DNA of 64,000 bases, from positions 49,034 through 113,033 of the forward strand of contig JAISWO010000029.1 of assembly GCA_031271045.1 (NCBI GenBank), in the 5' to 3' direction. This stretch comes from Tannerellaceae bacterium. GTDB taxonomy: Bacteria; Bacteroidota; Bacteroidia; Bacteroidales; Tannerellaceae. Of this stretch, positions 4,010 through 55,270 are shown piece by piece. Each line of letters opens with the position of its first letter. Position 1 is the stretch's first letter. The translations under genes were made by a program, and so were the position numbers. Below the pieces are notes generated by a model. The model was given only the letters and a program-made list of their open reading frames with translations. It made no database searches and was not told where the DNA came from.

Positions 4010-4410
4010 GAAGGCGTCGCACAATGTGTGACGCCTTCGTTTTGCTCCGGATGTTGGCGTCTGCAAGGAGGGACACCAACGTTTTTACTATTTTCTGCCA
4101 GCACACCATGTGTGACACCAACGTTTGGCTCCGGACCTTGGCGTCTGCAAGGGGCGAAAGCAACGTTTTTATTATTTTTTGACGTCGCGCAATGCGTGAA
4201 ACTAACGTTTTGCTCCGGATCTTGACGTCTGCAAGGGGAGAAAGCATTGTTTCTTTCGCTTTTTACCTGTCACGCAATGCGTGAAACCGAAAAATCAGGG
4301 CAAACGTTGGTGGCACGCATTGTGGCTGGCAGAAAATAGTAAAAACGTTGGCGGCACACATTACGGGACGGTAAAAACCGGGGGCAAACGTTAGCGTCCC
4401 GCACTGTTGG
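4010..4410. repeat. Imperfect ~84-bp tandem repeat array with units in both orientations (array A)
   Basis: TGYGTGA anchors at 4025, 4109, 4193 and 4278 (spacing 84, 84, 85); 'ccaacgtttttactattttctgcca' at ~4076-4100 recurs reverse-complemented at ~4329-4352. Confidence 0.85.
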
Positions 4411-4513: not shown

Positions 4514-5674
4514 ATGAAGAAGGTACGCAAATTTATCCGACTCGTTCGACGCCTCCGCAATGGCGATCACTACGAATTCTACAGAGAAATTATCAAGCTC
4601 TTAGTGAGATTTGAAGGCAAACTGGGAGACTTGCTCAAGCTAATGCTCGTCCTCAAAACGGTCTTCCAAAAAGAAGACGAGATCTTCAAACGCAACGCCC
4701 GCGCCGAAGAAACGCCCGGGATCGGCGATACTGACCAGCAACGGATGACGGTCTTCCGGCGCATCAAACTGCACGTCGACGCAGCACACTACAATAAAAA
4801 TCCCGCCGAAGTGGCCGCCGCCGAAGCGCTCGACTATGTGATCAACAACTACAAAAGCATCCCCTCGACGTCCTTGACACAGGCCAGCGCGCTGATCGTC
4901 AATCTGATTCAAGACCTCCGTTTGCCTAAGTACGCCACCCACATCGCCACCCTCGACCTTACGGAAGCCGTCGACGACCTCGAAGCCGCCAACAACGCCT
5001 TGGAAGAAATCCTCTCCGAACGCGAACACAGTCAGGGCAGCGCCCAACGCATCGGCAATATGAAGACCGCCCGCCCGAATACCGACGTAGCCGGCGGTAA
5101 CCTTGCCGATGGCCTCAATATTTTCTACCTTCTGGCCAAGCTCAACGGTCGGACCGCCTACATGGAAGCCTTAGGCGAAATCATCGACGGCATGAACGAC
5201 ATCATTATCTATTATGAAAAGAAATACGCTCATATCGGCGGCGGCGGCAGCTCCAAACCCGACGATGAAGATGATGATGACGAAGATGACGACGGCGACC
5301 TTACGCCTTCCTTCTCCATCGCCGCCCAGGCCGTGACGGATGGTTCGACGATGTACGTCACCTTGACGAATCCCGACTCCGCAGCCGACCTCTTCGCCGA
5401 AGCCGTCGGCGCCACCCTCGTCCTCCTGCTCGACCCCGAAGCCGGCGTCACAGCCTTCGACCTCTTTCCCATCACCGGCCTTGAAGTCCTGCAAGAAGGC
5501 GACACAGAGAAACCCGTCGGCCTGAAAGTCGGCCCGCAAGCCAACAGCACATTCGACGTCCCCACCTACAACGCCGGCCCCTGCACCGCCTGGGTCGAGA
5601 AGGACGACGTCGTCCTCGCCAACCTTACCGGCGCCTTCTACCCCGGAAGCATCACCGAAGGCAGGAAGCAATAA
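4514..5674 (+). CDS. DUF6261-like protein with acidic linker and extra C-terminal beta-rich domain
   Basis: Helical N-terminal half resembling Bacteroidales DUF6261 proteins; DDEDDDDEDDDGD linker then ~130 aa beta-rich region. Confidence 0.55.
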   Translation: MKKVRKFIRLVRRLRNGDHYEFYREIIKLLVRFEGKLGDLLKLMLVLKTVFQKEDEIFKRNARAEETPGIGDTDQQRMTVFRRIKLHVDAAHYNKNPAEVAAAEALDYVINNYKSIPSTSLTQASALIVNLIQDLRLPKYATHIATLDLTEAVDDLEAANNALEEILSEREHSQGSAQRIGNMKTARPNTDVAGGNLADGLNIFYLLAKLNGRTAYMEALGEIIDGMNDIIIYYEKKYAHIGGGGSSKPDDEDDDDEDDDGDLTPSFSIAAQAVTDGSTMYVTLTNPDSAADLFAEAVGATLVLLLDPEAGVTAFDLFPITGLEVLQEGDTEKPVGLKVGPQANSTFDVPTYNAGPCTAWVEKDDVVLANLTGAFYPGSITEGRKQ

Positions 5675-5701
5675 CAAAGACCTCCTTCCGGAACAACAAC
5701 C

Positions 5702-5738
5702 GCCCGGAGAAGTAACCCATACTTCTCCGGGCTTTTCC
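5702..5738 (+). terminator. Rho-independent terminator
   Basis: CCCGGAGAAGT-aacccat-ACTTCTCCGGG followed by cttttcctt. Confidence 0.75.
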
Positions 5739-5853
5739 TTTATATATACCCAATCGCACATACCATACTCCGACAGGAAGATTCCTCTCCTTCCGGAAAC
5801 TTTTCCTATCTTTGCAGCCATTAAAACAAAATATAAAGAAGTTCTTTTATACA

Positions 5854-6780
5854 ATGATAAATAGAATACTGATACGTATCAAGATCCTTCAGATCGTCTA
5901 CGCTTATTACCAGAACGGAAACAACGATCTGAAAGCAGCAGAAAACGAACTGCTCTTCAGTTTGCGCAAAGCCTACGACCTGTACCATTACCTCCTGCTT
6001 CTCATCATTGACCTTACAAACCTTCACGAACGGCAATTAGACAGCCGCAAACATAAATACATGCCCACCGACGAAGATCTTCATCCCAACATGCGACTCG
6101 TAAATAACCGCTTTGCACAGCAATTGAGCCGAAACGAAGACTTACAACGCTACATAAGCGAATACAAAATATCATGGATCAACGATCCCGACTTCCTCCG
6201 AAGCACCCTGGATATAATCCTCTCCTCCGACCTCTATACCCAATACATAGAAAATCCCGACGATTCGTACGAAACAGACAAAACATTCTGGCGCGAAGCT
6301 TTCAAGAAATGCATCCAAAGGAACGATTACGTCGCCGACTACCTGGAAGACAAAAGCATCTTCTGGAACGATGATATGGAAACCATCGGAGCCTTCATAC
6401 TGAAAACCATCAAACGCTTCAGGGAAGAAGAAGGCAGCAAGCACATGCTCCTGCCTATGTTCAAAGACGAAGAAGACCGCCTGTTCGCCGTCAAGCTGTT
6501 TCGCGAAACCCTCTTGCACGGCGTAGATATCCGCCAACGCCTGAGCCATCACATCAAAAACTGGGATGTCGAACGCATTTCCAACATTGATATGATCATC
6601 ATGCAGATCGCCCTGACCGAGATACTAACCTTCCCCTCCATCCCGGTAAGCGTCAGCCTGAACGAATATATCGACACCGCCAAATACTACGGCACCCCCA
6701 AAAGCGGCGTATTCATCAACGGCATATTAGATGCCGCCGTAGAAGAACTGAAAAAAGAGAAGGTGTTATTCAAAGACTGA
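5854..6780 (+). CDS. nusB: Transcription antitermination factor NusB
   Basis: MINRILIRIKILQIVYAYYQ N-terminus and NIDMIIMQIALTEILTFPSIPVSVSLNEYIDTAKYYGTPKSGVFINGILD. Confidence 0.92.
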   Translation: MINRILIRIKILQIVYAYYQNGNNDLKAAENELLFSLRKAYDLYHYLLLLIIDLTNLHERQLDSRKHKYMPTDEDLHPNMRLVNNRFAQQLSRNEDLQRYISEYKISWINDPDFLRSTLDIILSSDLYTQYIENPDDSYETDKTFWREAFKKCIQRNDYVADYLEDKSIFWNDDMETIGAFILKTIKRFREEEGSKHMLLPMFKDEEDRLFAVKLFRETLLHGVDIRQRLSHHIKNWDVERISNIDMIIMQIALTEILTFPSIPVSVSLNEYIDTAKYYGTPKSGVFINGILDAAVEELKKEKVLFKD

Positions 6781-6919
6781 CTCTTGAATTAGTGATGAAA
6801 AAAAGGTCTGAAAAACAAAAAAACGATTCTTTCTGAGTAATTCAGACAACTTATCATTACTTTTGACCTCGCGTTACACATATTATATATACCAACAAAC
6901 AAATAAAACAAAATAAAAA

Positions 6920-7246
6920 ATGATGAACTTACTGAGTATTTTACTGGATGCCGCCCCGGCAACGACAGGCGGCAATGCGTCAGGCGGCCTGGTTAGCTTC
7001 CTGCCGATCATAGCCATCGTGGTTATATTCTATTTCTTTATGATTCGCCCGCAGCAAAAGAAACAAAAAGACATCCGCAAAGCCCGCGAAGCTATGAAAC
7101 CCGGAGATAAAGTGGTAACAGCCGGCGGAATCTTTGGGCGCGTGAAAGAAATATCGGAGCATTATATGGTGCTCGAAATAGCCGAAGGAGTCCGGATACG
7201 CATAGACAAAGGCTCTGTCTTTGCCTCGGCAGAAGACGCGAAATAA
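6920..7246 (+). CDS. yajC: Preprotein translocase subunit YajC
   Basis: FYFFMIRPQQKKQKDIRKAREAMKPGDKVVTAGGIFGRV. Confidence 0.95.
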   Translation: MMNLLSILLDAAPATTGGNASGGLVSFLPIIAIVVIFYFFMIRPQQKKQKDIRKAREAMKPGDKVVTAGGIFGRVKEISEHYMVLEIAEGVRIRIDKGSVFASAEDAK

Positions 7247-7258
7247 CCCCCCTTCGCC

Positions 7259-8266
7259 ATGATACGACTTGATAGCCTGTCGCACATATTCAAGTCTGTC
7301 CACAGGGAGACTAAAACTTTCTTTCCCCACTTTCGGTGGAAAGAAGTTTTAATCTTTCTGTTTTTTTTCTGCCTCTCCTTCGTCTTCTGGGCACTGCAAA
7401 GTATGCAGCAAGAGTACGAGATACAATTACAAATCCCCGTCCATTACAAAGAAATGCCCCCCGATATGGCCTTCGTACATACCCCGCCCTCCAGGATAAA
7501 CGTCCGCATCCGCGACAAAGGCAGCATATTGCTCAACTATACGCTGGGACAGTCGGGCGCCTCCCTCGACGTCGGTATGCAAGAGACGCATTTTCTGTCC
7601 GATAGCGCCCTCCGGCTGTCGGAAAACGACCTCGAAGGAATGATCGCCAAGCAACTGATCCCCACAACTCACCTGCTTGGCTTCGAACCTCGGCAGATCA
7701 TCGCACCTTACAGCAAACTGAGAAAAAAGAAACTCCCGGTCTACTTCGATGGCAACATACGTACAGAGCCCGGTTTTCAGGTATCCGGCGACATCATCGT
7801 CTCCCCATCCACGACCGAAGCGTACGCTCCGGACCTTGTCCTGGCAACCATCACATCAATACCAACCGTTTATACGGAAATAAAAAAGGGAAACAAAACA
7901 ATTACCCGTAAATTAAAACTCCGCAAAACCGACGGAGTGACGTTCGACCCTGATGTCGTGTCGGTGACGATACCTATCGAGGAATATACACAAAAGACAC
8001 TCGAAATACCCATCTTGTGCAAACAGATCCCGGCAGGCTATGCCATCCGTATGTTCCCGTCAGTAGTGAGAGTGACCTGCAATGTTCCCCTTTCACTTTT
8101 TAAAGATTTGTCGGAAAAAGATTTTGCCGTCGAAACACTCGTCGCCAACCCGGAAGACAACGCATCGGGTATGATCCCCTTGCGCTTAACCCGCAAACCG
8201 GACTGGATGGACCGCGTCTCCCTTTCGCAAGATTCCATAGAATTTATCCTGGAACAAAATAAATGA
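7259..8266 (+). CDS. YbbR-like domain-containing protein
   Basis: N-terminal TM (FFFCLSFVFWALQS), YbbR-like repeats, located between yajC and coaE. Confidence 0.85.
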   Translation: MIRLDSLSHIFKSVHRETKTFFPHFRWKEVLIFLFFFCLSFVFWALQSMQQEYEIQLQIPVHYKEMPPDMAFVHTPPSRINVRIRDKGSILLNYTLGQSGASLDVGMQETHFLSDSALRLSENDLEGMIAKQLIPTTHLLGFEPRQIIAPYSKLRKKKLPVYFDGNIRTEPGFQVSGDIIVSPSTTEAYAPDLVLATITSIPTVYTEIKKGNKTITRKLKLRKTDGVTFDPDVVSVTIPIEEYTQKTLEIPILCKQIPAGYAIRMFPSVVRVTCNVPLSLFKDLSEKDFAVETLVANPEDNASGMIPLRLTRKPDWMDRVSLSQDSIEFILEQNK

Positions 8267-16878: not shown

Positions 16879-17076
16879 GACGCAAGCCGCGTTAGCCCTA
16901 ACGGGAGTCGCGTTAGCCTTAACGCAAGCCGCGTTAGCCTTAACGGGAGTCGCGTTAGCCTTAACGCAAGCCGCGTTAGCCTTAACGCAAGCCGCGTTAG
17001 CCTTAACGCAAGCCGCGTTAGCCTTAACGCAAGCCGCGTTAACCTTAACGGGAGCCGCGTTAGCCTTAACGCACGG
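16879..17076. repeat. 21-bp tandem repeat array, about 9 copies (array B)
   Basis: Unit ACGCAAGCCGCGTTAGCCTTA with alternation to ACGGGAGTCGCGTTAGCCTTA; lies between fimbrillin and anchor genes. Confidence 0.93.
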
Positions 17077-32970: not shown

Positions 32971-33008
32971 CCTTTGGAAAAGCTTATTTTGTCACAGCAC
33001 ATTTCAAC
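32971..33008. repeat. Solitary unit related to the 42-bp arrays at 36.6-37.2 kb
   Basis: cctttggaaaagcttattttgtcacagcacatttcaac versus junction unit ctttggaaaagcctaatttatcgtagcacacttttcaac. Confidence 0.75.
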
Positions 33009-33037
33009 GGATTTAAACCATGACCATTGTTTCTTTA

Positions 33038-33607
33038 TCAGTCGTTGAATTTTTGTCCCTTTATCTCTTTAATAAAGTCAATGAGCACAATATTCTTAGC
33101 CTTATAGTCAATAAGTAGTTTCCTAATTCTATCAACTTTCCCCTTGAAAGTTTTATCTTGACTCTCTTTTATATAAGAACCGTCCATAGGGAAAAACAAA
33201 TTTTTAGCAAGTTCTATTATCTCCAGATCATTTGCGCCAGCTGTAACTGTAACATAATCAATATAATTGTTAATTGCTTGTTTATAATCTTTTATTCTTG
33301 TCTTTCTTGATAGATGATTGATTATTCTTTGTTGAAGATAAAAAGCCATTATGCCAAAAACAAATCCAAGTAATGCGCCTAAAATAACTCCTGCATATTT
33401 TTCGTTCCATGTTTCTTTCTTTTCAGACATTGTGTCTTCAACTTTCAAGATGACATATTTATCTTTTATCAAACATCCATTCTCTACAAGGGTATCCATA
33501 TTACAGGCGTTATTGTTAAATGTAGCATTAACTATTACACTGTCATTTGAAGTGGCATTACACTCAAAAAGACAAAGACAGGTGACAAATAATACCCTGA
33601 GTATCAT
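33038..33607 (-). CDS. Hypothetical single-TM protein, second gene of operon with P-loop NTPase
   Basis: N-terminal hydrophobic signal-like segment, TM YAGVILGALLGFVFGIMAFYL, cytosolic-looking charged C-terminus; starts 6 bp after the NTPase stop. Confidence 0.7.
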   Translation of the reverse strand: MILRVLFVTCLCLFECNATSNDSVIVNATFNNNACNMDTLVENGCLIKDKYVILKVEDTMSEKKETWNEKYAGVILGALLGFVFGIMAFYLQQRIINHLSRKTRIKDYKQAINNYIDYVTVTAGANDLEIIELAKNLFFPMDGSYIKESQDKTFKGKVDRIRKLLIDYKAKNIVLIDFIKEIKGQKFND

Positions 33608-33613
33608 AAACTA

Positions 33614-35737
33614 TTAAATATTAAATATTGATTGAATTTTAGTTTCTATTTTCGCCCTCTCATCATCTATCCCTGCAAAATATGCCTCAATATTTGAAGT
33701 AAATGCCGAAATGGTTCCTCCAGAATTTATTGCTTTTAATTCGCCTTTAATATTTTTGATTATGTCTTCCATATTCGGCAATTCAATTTTAAGCATATCT
33801 AAGTTATCATAGACATCACTATATTTATTCTTTTCGTACTCTAATGCTGTTTTCAATAATGTCAAAAAATAAATAACAGATCGTCCTTTTTCTTTTATTA
33901 ATTTTCTTGCTGTACTTGAATATTCTTCTCCCTGAAATAAGAGATATGAATACCCTATGGATTGGTTTAATTTATAAAAATCAGCTTGATGCAGTATGTC
34001 GGGAAGGGGCAATAAATTATCATCAATCATTAATTGTAGATAATAAAACTTGAAAACCATTTCGTTTATAATGGTTGCCCCCTTTATTGATGTTTTTAGC
34101 GTTAGTTTATCGCTTTCATCTCTGATATATGTTTTTTTTACCTCTATAATGTTAGATTGATTTGAATCAGTTAGAGTTTTCAATATCATATCTATATATT
34201 TTTTCTCGTATATTTTATCTTTTCCTGTTGTGCTAAAAGTATCATAAATATCTTCAATAGTAGTTTCTATATTTTTAGATGTTCGTATATCTATAAATTT
34301 AATAATGAAATACTTTAGCCAATATGTGATTGGTTTAAAATGTTCGGCATTATAATTCATAAAAACATTAGTAATGACTGAACGATGGTCAGAATATAGT
34401 TGATATCCATGTAAAATAAAAGCCATTAACCCCACCGGTTCATTTTTTAAAAATCGGGCTGTATTAAAATAAGATATGTAACTGTAATTATTTAGATACT
34501 CCATCATCTCTCTCAATCCAAAATTAGTTAAACGTTGGATTGTAGCAATGAGATTGATACTCCTTTCCGTTTCCCCTGTATTAGGTTCTAAATAGTTAGC
34601 AATCTTTGTAATATGTTCTTTTATTTTTCCTTTTTTTTCATCATCGTATTGTGTATCTATTAAATCATTAAGCATTGTGAATCTTTTCGACAATATATCG
34701 TCCCATTTGTACTCTTTTATTATATAAGGATCACAAGTTGTATAAACATTAACGTGCGAAGTCCCCACCCCCATGTTTTTTGATTTTATGTACTCAAATG
34801 TATCTTTTCTCATCACGAATAACATATTTGCATATAATGAATCAAAGTATTCATCGAGATTTTTCACAAAAAACTTCACCAAATCGTCAATTTGTTTAGT
34901 TACTTCTCTGTTTTCTTCAATATCAAAAAAGTTGAGTTTTGATTTGTGATAAATAAAATCAATATTGTCTATCAATAATGCTAATTTCATATCATGCTTA
35001 TCATGTATATATGTGATAATTCTACTAAAATTGCTTTTTCGCTCTTCTTTAGAATTTTTATCTATGCGCTCTAATGTGTCAATATAGCTGTTCAAAGTCC
35101 TATCATTTGTCAATAACTGATCAAAATTCTTACGAACTATGGCTATAAACTTTACAATGATATAGCTTGCAATACTTTCAGTAGTTTCATTTTCTTGATT
35201 TTCAACATCAATTCTAATAAATATCAATTTGTCTTTATATTTAGAAAACTTTTTTGAAATCAAATAGTTGATAAAAGCAGTTTTGCCTACCCCAACATTT
35301 CCCAGCAGGAACGAAATCTTATTCTTATTTGCATTTTGTTTATCCAAAAACACATCTTCCATAAAAGCTTCTATACCAATTCTCTCAGGTGCTCCTTCTC
35401 TTTTAATATCAGCTTCATTGTAATATTGATTATAAAACTTTTTTGCTAATTCTGGATTTGTGTTTTTCTCATTATTATCATAATACGCCGCAGGATGTCC
35501 CTTGAACACATCTTTTATCAATTTTTCTGTACTTTTCAATATGTCTCCATCTTTCAATGGAGGACGCTCAATTGAAATAGTATGCTTGTTATCCTCTTCT
35601 CTTCTGTTAAACTGAAGATATTCACTTCTATTATCCATATTCATATTATTATTATTCATATTATCTATATTCAAATTTGTCGCACCTTTATTTGGTATCA
35701 CATGTGGCCTTTTGCCTACTTTACCCTTTTTCTTCAT
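33614..35737 (-). CDS. Large P-loop NTPase of unknown function (candidate defence-type ATPase)
   Basis: Walker A GNVGVGKT (FLLGNVGVGKTAFINYL), Walker B-like LALLIDNIDFIY, VMRKDTFEYI sensor-like region; low-complexity Asn-rich N-terminus. Confidence 0.75.
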   Translation of the reverse strand: MKKKGKVGKRPHVIPNKGATNLNIDNMNNNNMNMDNRSEYLQFNRREEDNKHTISIERPPLKDGDILKSTEKLIKDVFKGHPAAYYDNNEKNTNPELAKKFYNQYYNEADIKREGAPERIGIEAFMEDVFLDKQNANKNKISFLLGNVGVGKTAFINYLISKKFSKYKDKLIFIRIDVENQENETTESIASYIIVKFIAIVRKNFDQLLTNDRTLNSYIDTLERIDKNSKEERKSNFSRIITYIHDKHDMKLALLIDNIDFIYHKSKLNFFDIEENREVTKQIDDLVKFFVKNLDEYFDSLYANMLFVMRKDTFEYIKSKNMGVGTSHVNVYTTCDPYIIKEYKWDDILSKRFTMLNDLIDTQYDDEKKGKIKEHITKIANYLEPNTGETERSINLIATIQRLTNFGLREMMEYLNNYSYISYFNTARFLKNEPVGLMAFILHGYQLYSDHRSVITNVFMNYNAEHFKPITYWLKYFIIKFIDIRTSKNIETTIEDIYDTFSTTGKDKIYEKKYIDMILKTLTDSNQSNIIEVKKTYIRDESDKLTLKTSIKGATIINEMVFKFYYLQLMIDDNLLPLPDILHQADFYKLNQSIGYSYLLFQGEEYSSTARKLIKEKGRSVIYFLTLLKTALEYEKNKYSDVYDNLDMLKIELPNMEDIIKNIKGELKAINSGGTISAFTSNIEAYFAGIDDERAKIETKIQSIFNI

Positions 35738-35833: not shown

Positions 35834-36215
35834 TTATATCTTTTCGTATTTCAGATTTTTCTGCATTTCCTTAATGTCAATACCCGGTCTGAAAACGACC
35901 TTGCTGTCTTTGATTAACGAAGCGTTGAACTTCGCTTCGGTTTTCCGCGCCTTCGCTGCTTACGCTTACCTGAAACGCGCCGAAATCGCCCAAACGGACA
36001 AGCTTGCCTTCAGCGAGGTTTTGTACAAGCACTTCGGTCAATGCCACCAATACCGCCTGCGTATCGGCAGGGCTAACAGTGCTTCGCGCCGCAATTTCTT
36101 TGCCCAACGCGCGCAATGTCGTGTCGCCCGCACTTTTCGCATTGGCGCACCATTTCTTTTGTTGCTGGGGTTGCAACGGATTTCCCCTTTCGCTTACAGT
36201 GTATCTTACTGCCAT
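35834..36215 (-). pseudogene. HU-like DNA-binding protein gene, frameshifted
   Basis: LSKEIA-like N-terminus through GDFGAFQVSVSSEGAE, then the frame shifts at the A4 run (+ strand TTTT 35941-35944); the other frame continues EAKFNASLIKDSKVVFRPGIDIKEMQKNLKYEKI*. Confidence 0.82.
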
Positions 36216-36295
36216 AGCTCTAATTTTTTAAGAATGAAACATCTAAAATTTGAAAGTGTAAAAGTACGAAAAGATTTGGATTATTCGCAAAAAAT

Positions 36296-36606
36296 ATTAC
36301 GTATGGAATTTTTCGGGTTGAAACGCCCGCCCAATGCCTTTAATTGGTCTTTGGGTGCGGTATCCGTAATAATCCGTCATGGAATCACTTTCATCTTCGT
36401 GCAGTTCCGCCACGATTACCGCCTTTGCATTTTCGGGAATTAGTGTTTTCAGCCGTTCCCGTCCATGGCTCGTAACCGGTCGTCGCGTTCCTGCTCTTTT
36501 TGCCGCGCCTCCTGTTCTTCCCGTGCTTTGTACTCCGCCTCGCTGTAAAGTGCAAAAAGCTCGAAAGCATCCATAAATTGGAGGTTTTCATCATCGTAGT
36601 AACAAT
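36296..36606 (-). pseudogene. Decayed Bacteroidales mobile-element 'fusion protein'-like gene
   Basis: Frame fragments DENLQFMDAFELFALYSEAEYKAREEQEARQKEQERDDRLRAMDGNG*, RLKTLIPENAKAVIVAELHEDESDSMTDYYGYRTQ, KDQLKALGGRFNPKNSI lie in different frames. Confidence 0.65.
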
Positions 36607-36936
36607 TATACTTTCTTTGGAAAAGCCTAATTTGTCACAGAACATAATTATACTTTCTTTGGAAAAGCCTAATTTATCGTAGCACATAGTTGTACTTTCT
36701 TTGGAAAAACTTAATTTGTCGCAGAACATAATTGGGCTTTCTTTGGAAAAACTTAATTTGTCGCAGCACATAGTTGTGCTTTCTTTGGAAAAACTTAATT
36801 TGTCGCAGAACATAATTGTACTTTCTTTGGAAAGGCTTAATTTGTCGCAGCACATAGTTGTACTTTCTTTGGAAAAGCTTAATTTATCGCAGAACATAAT
36901 TATACTTTCTTTGGAAAAGCCTAATTTATCGTAGCA
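36605..36936. repeat. 42-bp tandem repeat array, 8 units (array C), alternating A/B unit types
   Basis: CTTTCTTTGG at 36611, 36653, 36695, 36737, 36779, 36821, 36863, 36905; units alternate GAACATAATT / GCACATAGTT. Confidence 0.95.
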
Positions 36937-37160
36937 CACTTTTCAACTACTCTCAGAAGACCTCTATTTGTCATAGCACACTTTTCAACTACTCTCAGAA
37001 GAGCTCTGTTTGTCGTAGCACACTTTTCAACTACCTTGAGAAGAGCTCTGTTTGCCGTAGCACACTTTTCAACTACTCTGAGAAGAGCTCTGTTTGTCGT
37101 GGCACACTTTTCAACTACCTTGAGAAGGGCTCTGTTTAGAGTAGCACATTTTTCAGCCAT
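36937..37160. repeat. 42-bp tandem repeat array, about 6 units (array D), in phase with array C
   Basis: CACTTTTCAAC (last copy CATTTTTCAGC) at 36937, 36979, 37021, 37063, 37105, 37147; shared core TTTGTCGTAGCACA. Confidence 0.95.
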
Positions 37161-54527: not shown

Positions 54528-54648
54528 GCAATGTATATAATATATGTATGTATGGGATTCAGCCTCCAAATGTACTATAATTTGCGCGTTTAAGCTTCTG
54601 TCCCCCTCTCATTGTGCCGGATGCAAGCCCCGCTCTGTGAGGCAGCTC

Positions 54649-54806
54649 AACTATTCCCATAGTTCGATATGAACTATTCCAATAGTTCGATGTCAACTAT
54701 TCCAATAGTTCGATGTGAACTATTCCAATAGTTCGGTGTCAACTATTCTAATAGTTCGATGTCAACTATTGGAATAGTCGAGGTTAAACTATTAGAATGG
54801 TTGAGG
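54649..54806. repeat. 23-bp palindromic tandem repeat array, 7 units (array E)
   Basis: AACTATT starts at 54649, 54672, 54695, 54718, 54741, 54764, 54787; unit contains AACTATT-CC-AATAGTT. Confidence 0.95.
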
Positions 54807-55270
54807 TACGCAACAGCGCGCAAGCTTGAGTTGAAGCAGGGAGAAGGCTTTGCTGCCTCCACCTCTGCGCAGAGCGTAAGCCAACCGGCGCAATTTATAT
54901 TCGCTCAGAAAACATTTTAATGAGAATCATTGCTTATCCGAAGAAAAAGCACTTAATTTACGTCGATTTTCGACAGAAGCGCGGGCGTATACGATCCGGG
55001 GGTGTCGACAGAAGAAGAAGAGGAGGAGGATTTCAAAAGAGAAGCAACACTCCACAAATTTATGATTGTTAGATGTAGAGATTGAGTAAACAGTTCTTTT
55101 TCAAAGAAAGGACGAATCGCTTTGTCTCGTCTCGTCGGCATGTGATACATTGGCATACATTTTTTCTATTTTTCTTCTATTTTTCTACTTTCTATTTTTC
55201 CATGAAAGTGTAGGTGCGTCTGCATCTGCACTTTTTTCGTACATTGTCGGCCAATAAACAAGGATTGAAG

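Follow-up and report, generated by a model that had tools for sequence, protein, structure and literature searches.

A mobile two-gene cassette pairing an ATPase of predicted Orc/Cdc6-NLR class with a putative exported single-pass membrane protein: a candidate defence system from a Tannerellaceae bacterium

P-loop ATPases of the STAND, AVAST (Avs) and bacterial NACHT type follow their core with a lid and a winged helix, and the swapping of effectors around a single ATPase is typical of STAND-type defence families. Orc1/Cdc6 proteins, encoded by archaeal and eukaryotic replication genes, likewise combine an AAA+ core with a lid and a winged helix. PARIS joins an ATPase to a partner in a two-gene cassette that travels as mobile-element cargo (AriA/AriB; PMC9122126, see also there on effector swapping), as do other ATPase + partner systems of prophage and satellite hotspots. 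In RADAR, an anti-phage system of two genes, the ATPase RdrA combines a Cdc6/NLR-like AAA+ core with a helical C-terminal domain and has the deaminase RdrB as the product of its partner gene; RdrA resembles Cdc6 and the plant NLR ROQ1 and carries a four-helix insertion after its second and third strands (PMC9994260).

The gene pair reported here bears some likeness to each of these and, as a preliminary description of the locus had supposed, matches no named family in the libraries. In Pfam and NCBIfam its ATPase scores under all curated cut-offs, and from PADLOC (2023 version) it draws P-loop-level matches alone, none convincing; its partner has no Pfam or NCBIfam match at cut-off and no convincing match in the same PADLOC version. 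The pair lies in a 64,000-nucleotide stretch of a Tannerellaceae genome (hereafter the window; assembly GCA_031271045.1, contig JAISWO010000029.1, positions 49,034 to 113,033), where the same description had read a 707-aa ATPase followed 6 bp downstream by a 189-aa protein with an N-terminal signal-like segment and one transmembrane (TM) helix. The open reading frames, their lengths and their coordinates proved right, and the motifs and hydrophobic segments could be placed as follows.

33614..35737, minus strand: ATPase gene, 707 aa (ORF call, homology)
35279..35302, minus strand: Walker A, GNVGVGKT, residues 146-153 (alignment)
34958..34984, minus strand: Walker B, LALLIDNID, residues 252-260 (alignment)
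34088..34333, minus strand: predicted winged-helix region, residues 469-550 (AlphaFold2, moderate confidence)
33608..33613, minus strand: intergenic gap, 6 bp
33038..33607, minus strand: partner gene, 189 aa, signal-like N-terminus and one TM helix
33335..33391, minus strand: partner TM helix, residues 73-91 (hydropathy peak, KD 2.29)

Predicted fold of the ATPase and its described counterparts

The two nucleotide-binding motifs agree with the STAND pattern of a GxxGxGK[ST] Walker A and an acidic Walker B (GNVGVGKT and IDNID, respectively). G146, G149, G151 and K152 of the former are invariant in a four-member core alignment, as are D257, N258 and D260 of the latter, which opens the Walker B-like segment LALLIDNIDFIY (ATPase residues 252-263). 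AlphaFold2 modelling of the ATPase (eight sequences; pLDDT 68, pTM 0.69) predicts a disordered N-terminus (residues 1-60), an AAA+ core (~110-340) with a helical lid, a winged helix (~469-550) and a helical C-terminal domain (~600-706). The predicted winged helix has pLDDT values mostly of 66-91, and contains a W-L-K motif at residues 473-475; Foldseek aligns the model to Orc/Cdc6 proteins and NLRs. Residues 186-248, which follow the second core strand and precede Walker B, are modelled as four helices, and the C-terminus as ~100-150 aa of plain helices. No catalytic domain was seen in this tail, no C-terminal repeat family was found in Pfam up to E 1, and none of the eight family ATPases has a TM segment.

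Sequence searches of solved structures returned generic P-loop matches only, and the nearest Pfam families remained well under their thresholds (nSTAND_NTPase5, 15.4 bits vs a cut-off of 34; NACHT, 18.3 vs 26.7, Chlorobiaceae relative). Foldseek placed Orc/Cdc6 proteins at the top of the solved matches to the ATPase model (1fnn, E 2.2e-5), followed by RADAR RdrA (8hrb, E 1.5e-4), NLRP3, NOD2, Apaf-1, CED-4 and the Avs5 SIR2-STAND protein; since TM-scores by query were modest (0.2-0.3), these matches assign a fold class and not membership. Against viral structures, Foldseek gave generic AAA matches only. As modelled, the protein falls into the Orc/Cdc6-NLR (STAND-like) class of AAA+ ATPases and would be cytosolic.

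The comparison with RADAR extends beyond the Cdc6/NLR-like core to the helical C-terminal domain, the presence of a second gene and the four helices that the window model places where the RdrA insertion is described. The window system differs, however, in that its second gene encodes a putative exported single-TM protein and not a deaminase, and in the winged helix predicted in its ATPase. RdrA was not matched in PADLOC by any of the eight members up to E 1 and was absent from the PDB profile search, and no RdrB adenosine deaminase was read in the six neighbourhoods. With the STAND, Avs and NACHT proteins the ATPase would share, as modelled, the order of P-loop core, lid and winged helix; it departs from them in lacking both a Pfam STAND or NACHT match at cut-off and detectable C-terminal repeats (TPR, WD40 or LRR), and in that the candidate effector is encoded by a separate gene. 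From Orc1/Cdc6, the best solved-fold match, it is set apart by an identity of 11-12%, by its additional helical tail and N-terminal extension and by its operon with a membrane protein; a profile search reached Cdc6 (2qby) at E 0.067, over the P-loop region only. The KAP P-loop NTPases are distinguished by inserted TM helices, and Pfam gave no KAP match. Thus, of the earlier suggestion of a STAND/KAP-type protein the STAND-like P-loop ATPase stands, whereas the KAP assignment does not, and STAND-sensor repeats are not detectable. PARIS resembles the pair in layout and carriage, but the AriA model matches a single family member at E 0.51 and the window partner is not a DUF4435 protein.

A further likeness to the STAND and Avs systems, that modules swap around one ATPase, emerges from an 834-aa 'hypothetical protein' of Klebsiella, Serratia and Enterobacter plasmids (WP_047062017.1). 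It has a homologous ATPase core (24% identity; profile score of 26.8 bits vs 3.7 for the best of 200 shuffles), but in place of the membrane partner it has an HSDR_N-like, nuclease-like region N-terminal to the core (restriction enzyme N-terminal domain; weak match, E 0.004). PADLOC (2023) gave weak generic matches only, and the protein is a second candidate conflict protein. One gene of this type occupies positions 5095-7599 of locus L024 (NZ_CP138703.1), and such genes occur on conjugative IncF plasmids.

Family members, the partner protein and its pairing with the ATPase

Eight ATPase members were collected from ~1,870 genome searches together with scans of genomes and viral contigs. Among 397 Bacteroidota genomes there was one full-length relative (L026; 32% identity, E 1.3e-62), in a Chlorobiaceae MAG from a class other than that of the window. 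Alignments led to a prophage contig (L029) and to a divergent copy (L028) lying where a prophage ends, and further members were found in a Nitrospirae MAG (L032), in Desulfoluna limicola (L033), on an Ignavibacteria contig (L034) and in another genome from the sample of the Desulfoluna phylum (L054). Single-protein searches of plasmids, phages, genome contigs and viral contigs yielded no relative. The window's own genome was the only positive at family level (1/125), at order level (among 394) and in a class-level profile search (among 389); one of 98 genomes was positive in the class to which the Chlorobiaceae relative belongs, and the Desulfoluna phylum gave two positives among 297. The family is very rare, with members in about one of every several hundred genomes or in fewer still.

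Several candidates were set aside. The tblastn matches in G040 and G205 fell inside a beta-propeller-like protein and an ABC-type permease, respectively, the similarity of G945 and G1106 was limited to the P-loop surroundings of unrelated ATPases, and weak P0002 matches in the family were short and contained stops or lay in unrelated frames. The member count leaves out G713 (Bacteroidota search) and similar matches of 25-29 bits from the Desulfoluna phylum search.

Downstream DNA could be read for six main-branch loci (the Bacteroidales window, Chlorobiaceae, Nitrospirae, Desulfoluna, L054 from the same phylum as Desulfoluna, and the prophage), and in every one of them the next gene lies on the same strand and encodes a single-TM protein. 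The gaps are +6, -20, -31, -17, -11 and 0 bp: the genes are 6 bp apart in the window and overlap by 11-31 bp or abut in the relatives. The divergent L028 has no TM gene of at least 60 aa directly downstream, and L034 stops at its contig end. In nine loci, 137 ORFs reach a length of 130 aa or more; four of these combine a hydrophobic N-terminal segment with a single TM further along, and all four are partners. The Desulfoluna partner joins them as a fifth when it is read from its likely start.

These observations bear on whether the two genes adjoin by chance, are decayed or arise from faulty annotation, a reading that we regard as barely credible. It could appeal to the in-frame stops in the ATPases of L032 and L054 (two of the six paired), which may reflect accessory-gene turnover and decay or assembly error. 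The window genes are intact, though, the alignments are full-length, and recurrence of the pairing in several phyla already refutes chance; that both window genes are real follows also from the full-length relative with the same partner layout in another class. The two genes are a single horizontally mobile, translationally coupled cassette, in agreement with their earlier description as a two-gene operon in an accessory island. The pair is found together, its neighbours vary and are not in core synteny, and no match to a housekeeping family came to light.

The window partner has an N-terminal hydrophobic segment (residues 1-19, hydropathy), a short extracytoplasmic part of ~50 aa and, after the TM helix, a C-terminal stretch of ~98 residues predicted to form a helical domain, which is probably cytosolic because a positively charged stretch follows the helix. 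Its AlphaFold2 model (pLDDT 56) was too poor for structure search. Pairwise partner matches link the window with L032 (E 3.4e-5), L032 with L033 (2.7e-8), L026 with L033 (2e-6) and L029 with L032 (1.5e-4); the cytosolic domain of the window partner alone bears only a weak similarity to the others, scoring 18.2 in hhalign vs 13.75 for the best of 50 shuffles, with a probability of 2.6%. The case for homology of the window partner therefore combines TM and cytosolic similarity with topology and gene position. Five of the six partners read as a signal peptide followed by a periplasmic part, a TM and helices in the cytosol; the L054 partner begins with the TM. Gene 2 is predicted to encode a protein that is exported and crosses the inner membrane once, with an extracytoplasmic part that varies between loci and a helical domain in the cytosol.

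The architecture of the partner raises the question of the direction in which a signal would pass. The membrane protein might be an anchor, or a sensor whose extracytoplasmic part registers what happens at the envelope, for instance the adsorption of a phage or its injection, with the ATPase, through its winged helix and helical tail, as the output. In four of the six partners a signal peptide accompanies an extracytoplasmic domain of ~100 aa, which can be aligned among L026, L032 and L033; this would suit such an arrangement, as would the winged helix predicted in the ATPase. The extracytoplasmic part is, however, ~50 aa long in the window and absent in L054, hence dispensable, and the ATPase tail has no visible catalytic domain; we consider this direction rather unlikely. 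That the TM and cytosolic parts persist where the extracytoplasmic part is shortened or absent favours a core consisting of the ATPase and a TM-anchored cytosolic domain, and slightly favours the partner as effector over an envelope sensor. For a signal running from the ATPase to a membrane effector, the chances are close to even, if perhaps a shade under.

Genomic setting and mobility

In the window, the pair forms part of an AT-rich island (GC 0.28 for the ATPase gene and 0.31 for the partner gene vs 0.50 for the rest of the window, in keeping with the AT-richness described before), bounded by the end of a fimbria-like locus and, on its other side, by an ornithine cyclodeaminase-like gene. 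Its other features are the following.

35877..36215, minus strand: intact HU-like DNA-binding protein, 112 aa (Pfam HU-HIG), 139 bp upstream of the ATPase gene
36216-36600, minus strand: remnant frames interrupted by stops, between the HU-like gene and the repeat array
32972..33013, plus strand: lone 42-bp repeat copy, far (left) side of the island
36604..37155, plus strand: 42-bp tandem repeat array of ~13 copies, near (right) side

The HU-like gene was not seen beside relatives of the pair and therefore probably lies outside the system. Decayed mobile-element genes had been proposed as neighbours; a broken frame is indeed present upstream, its longest piece without a Pfam match, whereas the HU-like gene is intact and no integrase or transposase adjoins the pair. 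Nor is there a known defence gene beside the window copy. The array consists of two unit types (8 + 5.5 copies) with ~14 bp common to both, and the repeat was found nowhere else in the genome with up to three mismatches allowed. With the island inside or beside the array and one copy stranded on the opposite side, the layout suggests that the island was inserted into the repeats or that the array expanded alongside it. An empty site was not found in congeners, in which the 1649-aa neighbour has other genes next to it and UDP-glucose dehydrogenase matches begin downstream of the cyclodeaminase gene. No RNA family was found in the region. The window is otherwise rich in tandem repeat arrays, further examples being 4038-4288 (84 bp period), 16880-17073 (21 bp) and 54647-54807 (23 bp).

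The adjoining stretch, 9812-32737, resembles a Bacteroidales fimbria-type locus. It encodes fimbrillin-like lipoproteins, an OmpA/DUF3868 protein and a protein with a BACON domain, together with three AraC-type regulators and an FG-GAP protein of 1649 aa, which at its C-terminus bears an apparent likeness to a type IX secretion sorting domain. The proximity of the window copy to this locus would accord with a stress or envelope-homeostasis module bearing no relation to phages, a role with which the annotation alone is compatible; the extreme patchiness of the pair, its shifting neighbours and its prophage and tRNA-site locations fit conflict genes better and make such a module quite improbable.

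Most pairs reside in prophages, integrative elements or beside tRNA genes, and in all six the GC content is 15-24 points lower for the pair than for the remainder of the locus. The Desulfoluna pair has ParA/ParB genes on one side and an XRE + ImmA/IrrE pair on the other, in a neighbourhood with a tyrosine integrase and a D5-type primase. The L029 pair adjoins an S24-type repressor on a viral contig that also carries a cytosine methylase, L026 lies beside tRNA-Val, L054 beside tRNA-Leu with an integrase fragment, and the divergent L028 near tRNA-Ser and tail genes; the stretch read for the Nitrospirae locus holds no mobile-element gene. The tRNA-Val-side island of the Chlorobiaceae genome also contains an AT-rich 308-aa gene (L026 5683-6609) that adjoins transposase genes and has no Pfam or PADLOC match; a HEPN identity considered for a neighbour in L026 was dropped for want of a Pfam match.

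Patchy carriage as mobile cargo on prophages and integrative elements is characteristic of the defence class. It might also be expected of element housekeeping, in which a membrane-tethered Orc/Cdc6-like ATPase would serve replication, partition, copy control or transfer of the element, and the nearest solved folds, the Orc/Cdc6 initiators, point the same way as the location on integrative elements. The elements differ from one another, however, and are themselves equipped with ParAB or a primase (L033); HU excepted, no element gene surrounds the window copy, and the AT-rich cargo position and the membrane partner also speak against such a role. We judge element housekeeping improbable, and non-defence roles as a whole to lie on the unlikely side, whereas defence of some kind is probable.

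Proposed mode of action and meaning

The reading that we prefer, at a probability of about 0.5, is that the pair is an anti-phage or anti-mobile-element switch in which the ATPase drives the partner as a membrane effector. The observations establish the pairing, the order of the genes, their topology, mobility and rarity, and the fold class; a physical association of the two proteins, a defence function, a trigger and the partner's role as effector are inferred. At rest, the ATPase would be held in one nucleotide state and docked on the cytosolic domain of its partner; an infection signal would cause nucleotide exchange and oligomerisation of the ATPase; oligomerisation would in turn cluster the membrane protein, and the clustered partner might then damage or close down the cell membrane. 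It is possible, although at somewhat less than even odds, that the cassette represents a new family of membrane-coupled immune switches, in which the enzyme effector of an RdrA/NLR/Cdc6-like AAA+ ATPase has given way to a membrane protein that is exported, spans the membrane once and is translationally coupled to the ATPase. Such a family would be carried as rare mobile cargo in at least three or four phyla.

No paper describing this gene pair was found in the open-access literature, and the system has probably been missed so far because it is rare, divergent in sequence and located outside classical defence islands. The recurring pair provides ready material for tests, with an intact copy at positions 7677-10500 of L033, in the complete isolate genome of Desulfoluna limicola. 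Were the proposed switch borne out, a bacterial NLR/Cdc6-type ATPase would be linked directly to a membrane protein that is exported, an arrangement that can be likened to membrane-acting plant and animal receptors.
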